A stretch of 64,000 bases of DNA. Origin: Urbifossiella limnaea (lineage in GTDB: Bacteria > Planctomycetota > Planctomycetia > Gemmatales > Gemmataceae). This document shows, one piece after another, positions 21,463-25,187 of this stretch. The number at the start of each line of letters is the position of its first letter. Positions within the stretch are counted from its first letter, which is position 1. Location of the stretch: the NCBI RefSeq assembly GCF_007747215.1, contig NZ_CP036273.1, forward strand, positions 6,060,322 through 6,124,321. Direction: 5' to 3'. Both the position numbers and the translations under genes were made by a program. The notes beneath the pieces are model-generated. The model ran no database searches, had not been told where the DNA came from, and worked only from the letters and a program-made list of their open reading frames with translations.

Positions 21463-21470
21463 TCCGGGTC

Positions 21471-21550
21471 AAGGATGAAGGATGAAGGATGAAGGATGAA
21501 CCGGAGCAGCCGGTTCGGCCTTCATCCTTCATCCTTCATCCTTCATCCTT
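21471..21550. repeat. GGATGAA heptamer inverted repeat (four copies per arm)
   Basis: The left arm (21473-21500) holds four tandem GGATGAA heptamers and the right arm (21521-21548) four TTCATCC heptamers. The loop itself holds a 7-bp stem (GAACCGG/CCGGTTC, 21498-21516). It lies between the stop of the zinc-ribbon gene and the start of the DUF4175-like gene, both on the - strand. It is related in style to the GGGGTGAA repeats at 37.7, 38.2 and 56.3 kb. Confidence 0.85.
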
Positions 21551-21558
21551 TCTCGAAG

Positions 21559-22746: not shown

Positions 22747-25023
22747 CTACCGCCCCAGGTGCCGGGCCAGGAACGCGAACGTGCCGCGGCTGAACACCCG
22801 GTGCCCGCCCACCTGGTACTCGATCTCCGTCCGCGTCGGAAGCTTGAGCCGGTTGGCGTACAGGTAGCGGACCTTCGCGTACTCGTAGCTCACCATCTCG
22901 TCGGTGCCGACGCCGTCGTCGTGGCCACGCTCCACCATGAACGGCCGCGGCGCGATCAGGTACGCCATCTCGGCGTAGTTGAACGTGTTCCCCAAATCAA
23001 ACTCGTACATCTCGTACTCGCCCGTCCACATGTAGCTGCGGTCCAGGTCCACCGACACGTTCTTGCCGACCCACTCGTTGAAGTCGCCGGAGCAGATCGA
23101 CAGGCAGTAGCGCATCTCGACCGCCGGCACCCGCATCGCCGTCTTGCCGCCGTAGCTCAGGCCGTAGAACGCGATGCGGGTGTGGTCCACGTACGGCAGC
23201 GTGACGAGCCAGTCGATGGTGCGCTGGTGCTGGCGGATGATGAAGCTGAACAGCGACAGCTTCAGCGGGTTAGCCTTCCGCTGGAGCTGGCGGAACGTGT
23301 TCTGGCCGATGTACGGGTTCTGCGGCGCGTACACGATGTAACCCTGCTCCACGAGCCGCCGCGAAAAGTGGTCGTAGACGGGGCTCTTCTCCACGTCGAT
23401 GGTGTGCCGCGGCGTGCCTTCGAGGCCGTGCTGGCACACCACGACGGGCCGCTTCTCGCCGGCCTTCAGGTCCTTCGGCAGAAGCAGGATGCCGAGCGCG
23501 AACACGTCGTCGTACACGTCGAGCACGACCTCGTGGCCGGTGAACTTCTCCTCGTCGTACACCTGCCGCGTCCGCGGGTTCAGCGGCATCGTCGGCTCCG
23601 GCAGCTTGCCGATGACCTCGCTGTGGAAGTACTCGCGGAGCTGGTCGCTCGACTTCTGCCACGTCTCGGGGGTGGTGGCGTCGGCCTTGGCCCAGACGCC
23701 GCGGCGCACGGCCTCGCTGTCGCGCCACAGCTTCTGCGTGAACACCACCAGTTGGTCGAACTGCCGCTTGTGCCGCTTCGCCACCTCGATCGGCGGCAAC
23801 GGGCTCGCCTTCGTGTACTGCGGCACGTTGTCGGTGTGGACGCCGAGCACCATCGACAGCACGTGCGCGTCGCCTTCGAGGAGGTTGCCGTTGTTCAGCG
23901 CCCGCGCCCGCCGCATCTCAGCCAGGTACGGTTCCACGTCGGGCGGGGCGAGCTTGCCGGGGGCCGCGCCGCCGCGGCCGGCGGCGGGCGGCAGTGGTCC
24001 TGGCCACGACGGCCACGCCAGGAACGGGTGGAGCGCCTTCCCGTCACCCACCGGGTCGGTCTGCGGCTCGACCGGCAGGAAGCGACCCGCCATCATCAGG
24101 TTCAACTCGGCGGTGCCGAACTCGGTCAGCTGGCCCCAGACGTTGCGGTCGAGCGGGCGGTCCCACGTCGTCTCGGCCGGCACGATGTCGCCGAGCGGGG
24201 CGACGAACTTGATGCGCGGGTCGAGCGCGCCGGCGAAGCGGGCCAGGTACGCGCCTTCGCCGTGGCCGTACAGCGCGACGCGCTTCCCGGCGTCGCCGGG
24301 GGTGTTCGCCGTGAGCCAGTCCACGCCGGCGAGAATCTTCTGCACCTCGTAGCCGGGCATGGTGCGGCCCATCTCGTAGGCCATGCGGTGGACGAACTCG
24401 CGGTGCGGCTGGTTCGTCTGCCGGTTCAGCTTCGGGTTCCCCGAGTGGTTGTCGTTGCGGTCGATCAGCACCGGCACCAGCACGCGGAACTGGTGGGCGA
24501 TGCTGGGGGCGATCTGCACCGTCACCGGCACGCCGGGAACGAGGCCGCACACCTGTTCCGGCGTCCAGCCGGCGTGCGGCACCACGACCGCGACGCCCTT
24601 CGCCTTCCCCTTCGGCTCCAGCAGCAGCCCCTCGGCGTCCACCCCGGGCAGCGCCGCCCAGCGGACGTTGAACACGCGGAAGGCGTCCGATTCGGCGACG
24701 AGCGCGGAGGCGGTCGGGCTGCTGACGAACTCGAGCCGCGGTTCGAGGCGCTGGTCGACGACGCCGAGGTACTTGCGCAGCCGCTCGCGGTTCGGCTCGA
24801 CGGACTTCTCGAAGTCGTCCTGGCTGTCGAAGTTCGGCTTCCAGCGGGCGGCGCGCTGCTTCGCCGAGTCGGCGGTGGCGCGGTCGAGGTACTTGTGGAG
24901 GCCGGCGACCATCTTCTTGGCCAGGTCGTCGGTGTCGGTGAGCGGCTTCGTGTTGGGCAGTTCGGCCGCGGGCGCGGCGGAGGCAGCACCGAGGAGCAAG
25001 AGGGTGGGGAGGAGGTGTTTCAT
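22747..25023 (-). CDS. Exported two-unit alpha/beta hydrolase (acetylxylan-esterase-like)
   Basis: 758 residues with a signal peptide (HLLPTLLLLGAASAAPAAEL). Two alpha/beta-hydrolase units occur in tandem. The N-terminal unit (about 130-330) has VAVVVPHAGWTPEQV and VALYGHGEGAYLARFAG, where the GxSxG serine is replaced by glycine. The C-terminal unit (about 470-758) has RPVVVCQHGLEGTPR and IAFYGLSYGGKTAM, with an intact GLSYGG nucleophile elbow and a plausible late histidine in VERGHDDGVG. The C-terminal unit should therefore be the active esterase, with the N-terminal unit a structural or binding pseudo-domain. The likely substrate is an acetylated polysaccharide, by family resemblance only. 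Confidence 0.8.
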   Translation of the reverse strand: MKHLLPTLLLLGAASAAPAAELPNTKPLTDTDDLAKKMVAGLHKYLDRATADSAKQRAARWKPNFDSQDDFEKSVEPNRERLRKYLGVVDQRLEPRLEFVSSPTASALVAESDAFRVFNVRWAALPGVDAEGLLLEPKGKAKGVAVVVPHAGWTPEQVCGLVPGVPVTVQIAPSIAHQFRVLVPVLIDRNDNHSGNPKLNRQTNQPHREFVHRMAYEMGRTMPGYEVQKILAGVDWLTANTPGDAGKRVALYGHGEGAYLARFAGALDPRIKFVAPLGDIVPAETTWDRPLDRNVWGQLTEFGTAELNLMMAGRFLPVEPQTDPVGDGKALHPFLAWPSWPGPLPPAAGRGGAAPGKLAPPDVEPYLAEMRRARALNNGNLLEGDAHVLSMVLGVHTDNVPQYTKASPLPPIEVAKRHKRQFDQLVVFTQKLWRDSEAVRRGVWAKADATTPETWQKSSDQLREYFHSEVIGKLPEPTMPLNPRTRQVYDEEKFTGHEVVLDVYDDVFALGILLLPKDLKAGEKRPVVVCQHGLEGTPRHTIDVEKSPVYDHFSRRLVEQGYIVYAPQNPYIGQNTFRQLQRKANPLKLSLFSFIIRQHQRTIDWLVTLPYVDHTRIAFYGLSYGGKTAMRVPAVEMRYCLSICSGDFNEWVGKNVSVDLDRSYMWTGEYEMYEFDLGNTFNYAEMAYLIAPRPFMVERGHDDGVGTDEMVSYEYAKVRYLYANRLKLPTRTEIEYQVGGHRVFSRGTFAFLARHLGR

Positions 25024-25069: not shown

Positions 25070-25187
25070 CGCCCGGGGTTTCCACCCCGGGCTAAACACG
25101 GCCGCCTCTCCGGGGCTCAAAACCCTGGCTCGGGGCTTCAGCCCCGGCGGGGCGTTCGTCCATAGCCCGGGGTGGAAACCCCGGGCG
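25070..25187. repeat. Perfect 25-bp inverted repeat with inner hairpin
   Basis: Arms 25070-25094 and 25163-25187 are perfectly complementary. The 68-base loop holds a smaller hairpin (CGGGGCTTCAGCCCCG). It lies between the DUF1501 stop (25211) and the hydrolase start (25023), both on the - strand. Confidence 0.85.

Follow-up and report, generated by a model that had tools for sequence, protein, structure and literature searches.

Closest described systems

Tandems of an enzyme and a pseudoenzyme are known in principle. Receptor phosphatases, for example, join an active domain (D1) and an inactive one (D2), so that a single chain likewise pairs a live and a dead version of one fold, although the fold, the organisms and the function are different. 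For tandem alpha/beta-hydrolase esterases with one dead unit, no description was found among the titles and abstract openings of the open-access literature searched. Within that literature, and as far as it shows, the family described here, a carbohydrate-esterase-like family that crosses phyla and carries a fixed dead repeat, is new, and so is a second family with the mirror-image arrangement.

The acetyl xylan esterases of CE7 (AXE1) have GxSQGG as their family motif. Their fold resembles that of the protein under study (Z about 20-21), and weak AXE1 matches occur in 28 of 65 C-terminal halves of the family. However, this protein has GLSYGG, with a Tyr after the Ser, and reaches 16.8 bits with AXE1 against a cut-off of 21, which rules out CE7 membership. 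The nearest solved folds are those of two putative acetyl xylan esterases from Bacteroides, BF1801 (3nuz) and BVU_4111 (3g8y). They are nearest to the N-terminal half modelled alone (Z 24.8, 299 aligned, rmsd 4.0 for 3nuz; Z 24.4, 302 aligned, rmsd 4.0 for 3g8y) and tied as nearest to the full-chain model (Z 30.1, with 326 aligned and rmsd 3.8, and Z 30.0, respectively). Both differ from the tandem protein in being single-unit chains, with 12-18% identity.

CE15 glucuronoyl esterases such as OtCE15A belong to the secreted-type serine esterases, have a Ser-His-acid triad, and match the full-chain model with a Z of about 27, mainly via residues 432-758 in the C-terminal half. A conserved Arg directly follows their Ser, Arg268 in OtCE15A (PMC6937553). 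In the family described here that position is Tyr624 in all 140 readable rows, which excludes membership in CE15; none of the solved CE15 chains listed has a dead repeat. The pectin methylesterase BT1017 (6goc) resembles the whole model with a Z of 26.9 and the N-terminal half with a Z of 20.9. Its description reports a GXSXGG motif, an Asp and a His in loops after late strands, and a metal site formed by two Cys and two His close to the active site (PMC7939467). The motif and the placement of Asp and His are shared with the C-terminal half of the tandem protein. Contrary to the latter, BT1017 has as its extra part a small alpha/beta cap together with a DUF3826 region instead of a second hydrolase unit, and 6goc was, despite its fold score, not among the matches of the C-half profile search at E 0.01. 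The best reading of the protein is an esterase of this CE7/CE15/BT1017-like clan.

The tandem hydrolase of Urbifossiella limnaea

The window analysed is a stretch of 64,000 nucleotides of the U. limnaea genome, and the features of the gene studied are collected in Table 1. Its open reading frame starts with ATG. The protein is apparently exported, as its first 20 residues resemble a Sec signal peptide by eye and by hydropathy, with the peak at LLPTLLLLGAAS. Pfam and NCBIfam models gave weak generic hydrolase matches only. The sole model above its threshold was that of dienelactone hydrolase (DLH, PF01738; cut-off 21), on which the whole protein scores 23.1 bits, the best stretch lying in the C-terminal half. 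That half alone scores 20.6 bits with PF01738, next to a gathering score of 21, and the N-terminal half gave no match to this model at E 0.01.

Table 1. Features of the tandem hydrolase gene, in window coordinates
Feature	Residues	Position	Strand	Basis or remark
Whole gene, tandem alpha/beta hydrolase	758 aa	22747..25023	-	Open reading frame
Probable Sec signal peptide	1-20	24964..25023	-	Inspection, hydropathy peak, low pLDDT in residues 1-15
N-terminal dead hydrolase unit	33-395	23839..24927	-	Predicted fold, homology to C-half
Conserved N-half insert and helix	186-230	24334..24468	-	Invariant R189, R208, R213
Degenerate nucleophile elbow GHGEGA	253-258	24250..24267	-	Gly255 at Ser position; Glu256 conserved
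C-terminal live hydrolase unit with helical lead-in	412-758	22750..23790	-	Family alignment, fold model
Intact nucleophile elbow GLSYGG, Ser623	621-626	23146..23163	-	Sequence, family conservation
Likely catalytic acid	Asp703	22915..22917	-	After seventh core strand in model; 138/138 readable rows
Likely catalytic base	His741	22801..22803	-	After last strand in model; 138/138 readable rows

Two homologous units in one chain

The two halves were compared as family profiles, built from an N-half and a C-half alignment of 65 rows each. In hhalign these profiles match over 293 columns with a probability of 99.2% and an E-value of 6e-20. The match takes in the helical lead-ins, so each half is a whole copy of the unit. 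The elbow regions read LYGHGEGAYLA in the N-terminal unit (residues 251-261) and FYGLSYGGK in the C-terminal one (619-627), and GHGEG (253-257) falls in register with GLSYG (621-625). This register identifies GHGEG as a nucleophile elbow, and a chance motif can be discarded since the string is, in addition, a signature of the family. Both the sequence and the hhalign register thus bear out the initial annotation, which had placed GHGEG at the serine position of the first unit and an intact GLSYGG in the second.

An AlphaFold2 model of the full chain, run on the 65-row alignment, has a mean pLDDT of 90.4 and a pTM of 0.92; the N-terminal half modelled alone has values of 84.9 and 0.85. Both were also compared with known structures using Foldseek. 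A different fold for the N-terminal half, the outcome that the initial annotation had regarded as fatal to its proposal, is ruled out by this separate model and its fold matches, in which the half has the alpha/beta-hydrolase fold. Both halves are homologous and, in the models, both are predicted to adopt that fold.

Loss and retention of the catalytic residues

The catalytic residues were followed in 142 distinct tandem homologues: 104 from a first set, plus 21 and 17 added. Rows of the first set with fewer than 650 aa or 400 bits were excluded, as were added rows below the profile threshold or sharing an identical 60-residue stretch with an earlier row. In the C-terminal half, Ser623 is kept in 140 of 140 readable rows, and Asp703 and His741 in 138 of 138 each. 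This half carries the serine-esterase signature in its sequence, with a GxSxGG elbow and an acid and a His in the expected order. The N-terminal half, on the other hand, fails at all three triad positions. The nucleophile position holds Gly in 129 homologues, Ala in six, His in three, and Thr, Asn, Glu and Ser in one each; no residue of this unit aligns with Asp703, and no conserved His stands where one is expected (column 387, for instance, is mostly Ala, Glu or Arg). Judged by sequence, the N-terminal half is a pseudoenzyme and the C-terminal half the only one with catalytic residues. The proposal of a natural fusion of enzyme and pseudoenzyme within a single chain, made in the initial annotation, is thereby upheld: the halves are homologous, and the triad is gone from one and kept in the other.

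The same annotation had suggested searching for homologues with both serines. Only one of the 142 has a Ser in its N-terminal elbow (L253:1372-3720(+), with GNSDGA), and the rest of its N-terminal site is absent. Because its sisters L100 and L103 have GNGDGA and it lacks both D150 and E319, the simplest reading is a single reversal. In a tree of 56 rows the N-terminal halves form one clade (support 100/100) and the C-terminal halves another (100/99), with single-unit relatives falling outside both; nearly all of the 18 single-unit rows have a GxSxG-type Ser (L154 showed no match to the motif). A recent decay confined to one genome can be ruled out, since the Ser is missing from 141 of the 142 homologues and the N- and C-terminal halves make up a single clade each. 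The loss of the N-terminal site is an old, family-wide feature rather than a defect of this gene.

The residue after the nucleophile position is Glu in 127 homologues, Asp in 13, and Gly and Gln in one each, which leaves an acid at position 256 in 140 of the 142 rows. His207, in the insert, is found in 125. Both are unusual for a dead site, and might indicate an enzyme with displaced chemistry that uses, for example, Glu256 together with His207. However, His207 is absent from 17 of the 142 rows, two of them with a gap there, and we know of no alpha/beta hydrolase in which the residue after the nucleophile acts as the catalyst, which makes this explanation highly improbable.

Selection on the dead half

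The N-terminal half is the less alike of the two in 5221 of 5356 pairs, and its dN is 1.3-9.5 times higher in 14 chosen pairs, as rough counts with dS partly saturated. The divergence is most extreme in the Gemmata clade, to which the window belongs and where L037 and L038 share 92% identity in the C-terminal half and 52% in the N-terminal one. The window protein itself lacks the consensus residues D150, D152, R283, E289 and D304, and in this lineage the constraint on the dead half may be relaxed. Residues 203-229 are still conserved in this fast-evolving clade.

Within the dead half, conservation reaches 2.95 bits in the oxyanion loop, 2.90 in the elbow, and 2.91 in the insert and helix (186-230), compared with 1.95 in the strands. 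The segment 186-230 accounts for 44 of 350 scored positions and contains 15 of the 40 most conserved residues of the half; its Arg189, Arg208 and Arg213 are present in 142 of 142 rows. Selection acting on the face of the former active site accounts for this pattern better than selection for the fold as such.

The dead half could be a mere folding or stability scaffold left by the duplication, with no part at either active site, and its faster evolution, very fast in the Gemmata clade, is what such a role would produce. This is nevertheless distinctly unlikely, given that conservation peaks in the insert and in the loops of the former active site instead of the core strands, and that a dead and a live half, one of each, have been retained over several phyla. 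The main rival to the reading favoured below, in line with the glycan-binding or regulatory role suggested in the initial annotation, is that the dead half binds a glycan or other ligand, or acts allosterically; its old pocket would bind the substrate sugar or the product and not cleave it. The old active-site loops, which rank with the best-conserved segments of the half, as well as the acid at 256 and the three arginines, speak for it. The five consensus residues missing from the window protein speak against it, and no aromatic platform for a sugar was identified; on balance, binding is a rather unlikely function.

Proposed role of the dead half

The pairing of one live and one dead half is conserved over several bacterial phyla, for which reason the dead half probably has a useful job other than catalysis. 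Slightly favoured overall is an exported esterase of glycan esters in which the dead repeat serves the live unit as a fixed partner, packed against it and shaping its cleft. According to this proposal, a duplicated alpha/beta-hydrolase unit would have given rise to a serine esterase, probably acting on an ester-decorated polysaccharide. Catalysis would be performed by the C-terminal copy through Ser623, Asp703 and His741, with ordinary serine-esterase chemistry. The N-terminal copy would have dropped its nucleophile (Ser to Gly), acid and His before the family came to occupy several phyla, keeping the fold as well as its former active-site loops and the insert 186-230, with the conserved charged residues D150, E256, E319, R189, R208 and R213. 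As a permanent intramolecular partner packed on the live unit, it may complete or shape the substrate cleft, in substitution for the partner of a homodimer.

The nearest folds of the C-terminal half are acetyl xylan, glucuronoyl and pectin methyl esterases. Their targets are the acetyl, glucuronoyl or methyl esters found on polysaccharides, from which we infer a glycan ester as the likeliest substrate. Among 50 alignments of the full model to single-domain esterases, five begin at residues 194-213 of the N-terminal half, a weak hint from the model that this stretch may adjoin the live unit. On the contrary, the faster evolution of the N-terminal half and the consensus residues missing from the window protein count against a fixed partner and would fit a loosely constrained scaffold, or an ongoing decay in the clade of the window. 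The lack of a conserved gene neighborhood pointing to a pathway also counts against it.

The fusion of live and dead copies makes the job of a pseudoenzyme testable within a single chain, and the family supplies well over 100 natural versions with a fixed dead half. Another consequence is that counts of hydrolase domains in these genomes overstate the number of active esterases.

Distribution and genetic neighborhood

The U. limnaea genome holds one full-length copy among five matches. In a draw of 294 genomes from its phylum, 33 gave matches at E 1e-10, six of them through weak single-unit matches only, compared with 52 of 59 close relatives. Matches are found in 70 of 84 genomes from the phylum of the Poribacteria genome G296 (69 without one weak match, G791), in eight of 240 from that of G294 (Verrucomicrobia), and in eight of 247 from that of G295 (Acidobacteria), a few of these last being weak. 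The gene is thus near-universal in Poribacteria and in close relatives, and sparse elsewhere. Taxa were tallied for 80 loci among the confirmed relatives listed, which number at least 589. The 79 full-length rows obtained comprise 23 from Planctomycetota, 19 from Poribacteria, 15 from Verrucomicrobiota, 11 from Acidobacteriota, and 11 from other groups.

Poribacteria are sponge symbionts. A study of sponge microbiomes reports that CE7 and CE15 are enriched in sponge-associated lineages, and that glycoside hydrolases and carbohydrate esterases are enriched in Poribacteria among others (PMC8163846). A host phylum in which the gene is near-universal and a lineage with a fast-changing dead half provide useful material for further work.

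The genetic neighborhood was sampled at 34 loci, where 136 open reading frames were chosen, 134 of them aligned and 76 scanned for families. No shared partner was found at these loci; the commonest families, DUF1501 and GFO/IDH/MocA, appear in three of the 76 scanned neighbors, and a conserved operon or pathway is unsupported. Certain homologues have additional domains: in L007 the tandem hydrolase is fused behind a ThuA domain and a cytochrome c, and in L254 it is joined to a cytochrome c.

A mirror-image family in the same genome

Outside the window, the same genome encodes a second tandem hydrolase (G000:C1:7723431-7725644; L264; L004:802-3015; P0002 type). Like the first it consists of two homologous units, one of them live, but here the order is reversed, with the live unit (GASGGG) ahead of the dead one (GEGPAG). 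Across 39 aligned relatives, Ser is present in unit 1 of 38 and in unit 2 of none (Gly in 36, Ala in two, Arg in one). Of 59 relatives, 57 gave matches to this protein at E up to 1e-20, certain of these matches covering just one unit. In L166:2065-4191(-) the first unit has an Asp for the Ser (GLDGGS), so that neither unit carries a serine.

The dead and live units of both families, four kinds in total, are homologous by hhalign. In the tree, the dead clades of the two families lie apart, which goes against one shared origin, although joining them is not rejected by an AU test (p 0.0586). Two independent losses of the Ser are favored, not proven. The mirror family represents a second instance of the live/dead design. 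It might be that the dead half is a repurposed site, in which a new charged motif (GYGEGG with D150, E319 and invariant arginines) became fixed after the triad was lost and now reads a ligand or completes the cleft of the live unit, and that this arose twice, in mirror image, in the same lineages. This proposal is speculative and on the whole unlikely; if true, enzyme/pseudoenzyme tandems would be a standard but unrecognized way of building carbohydrate esterases in Planctomycetota and Poribacteria.

Repeats near the gene

Just upstream of the gene, a 22-base near-palindrome is found twice in opposite orientations, at window positions 25071-25092 (-) and 25165-25186 (+). These are its only copies in the window, with none expected, and the element may be a mobile intergenic repeat. 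Another intergenic region of the window, 21469-21552, has two facing blocks of the 7-base tandem repeat TTCATCC on opposite strands, with seven matches where none are expected.
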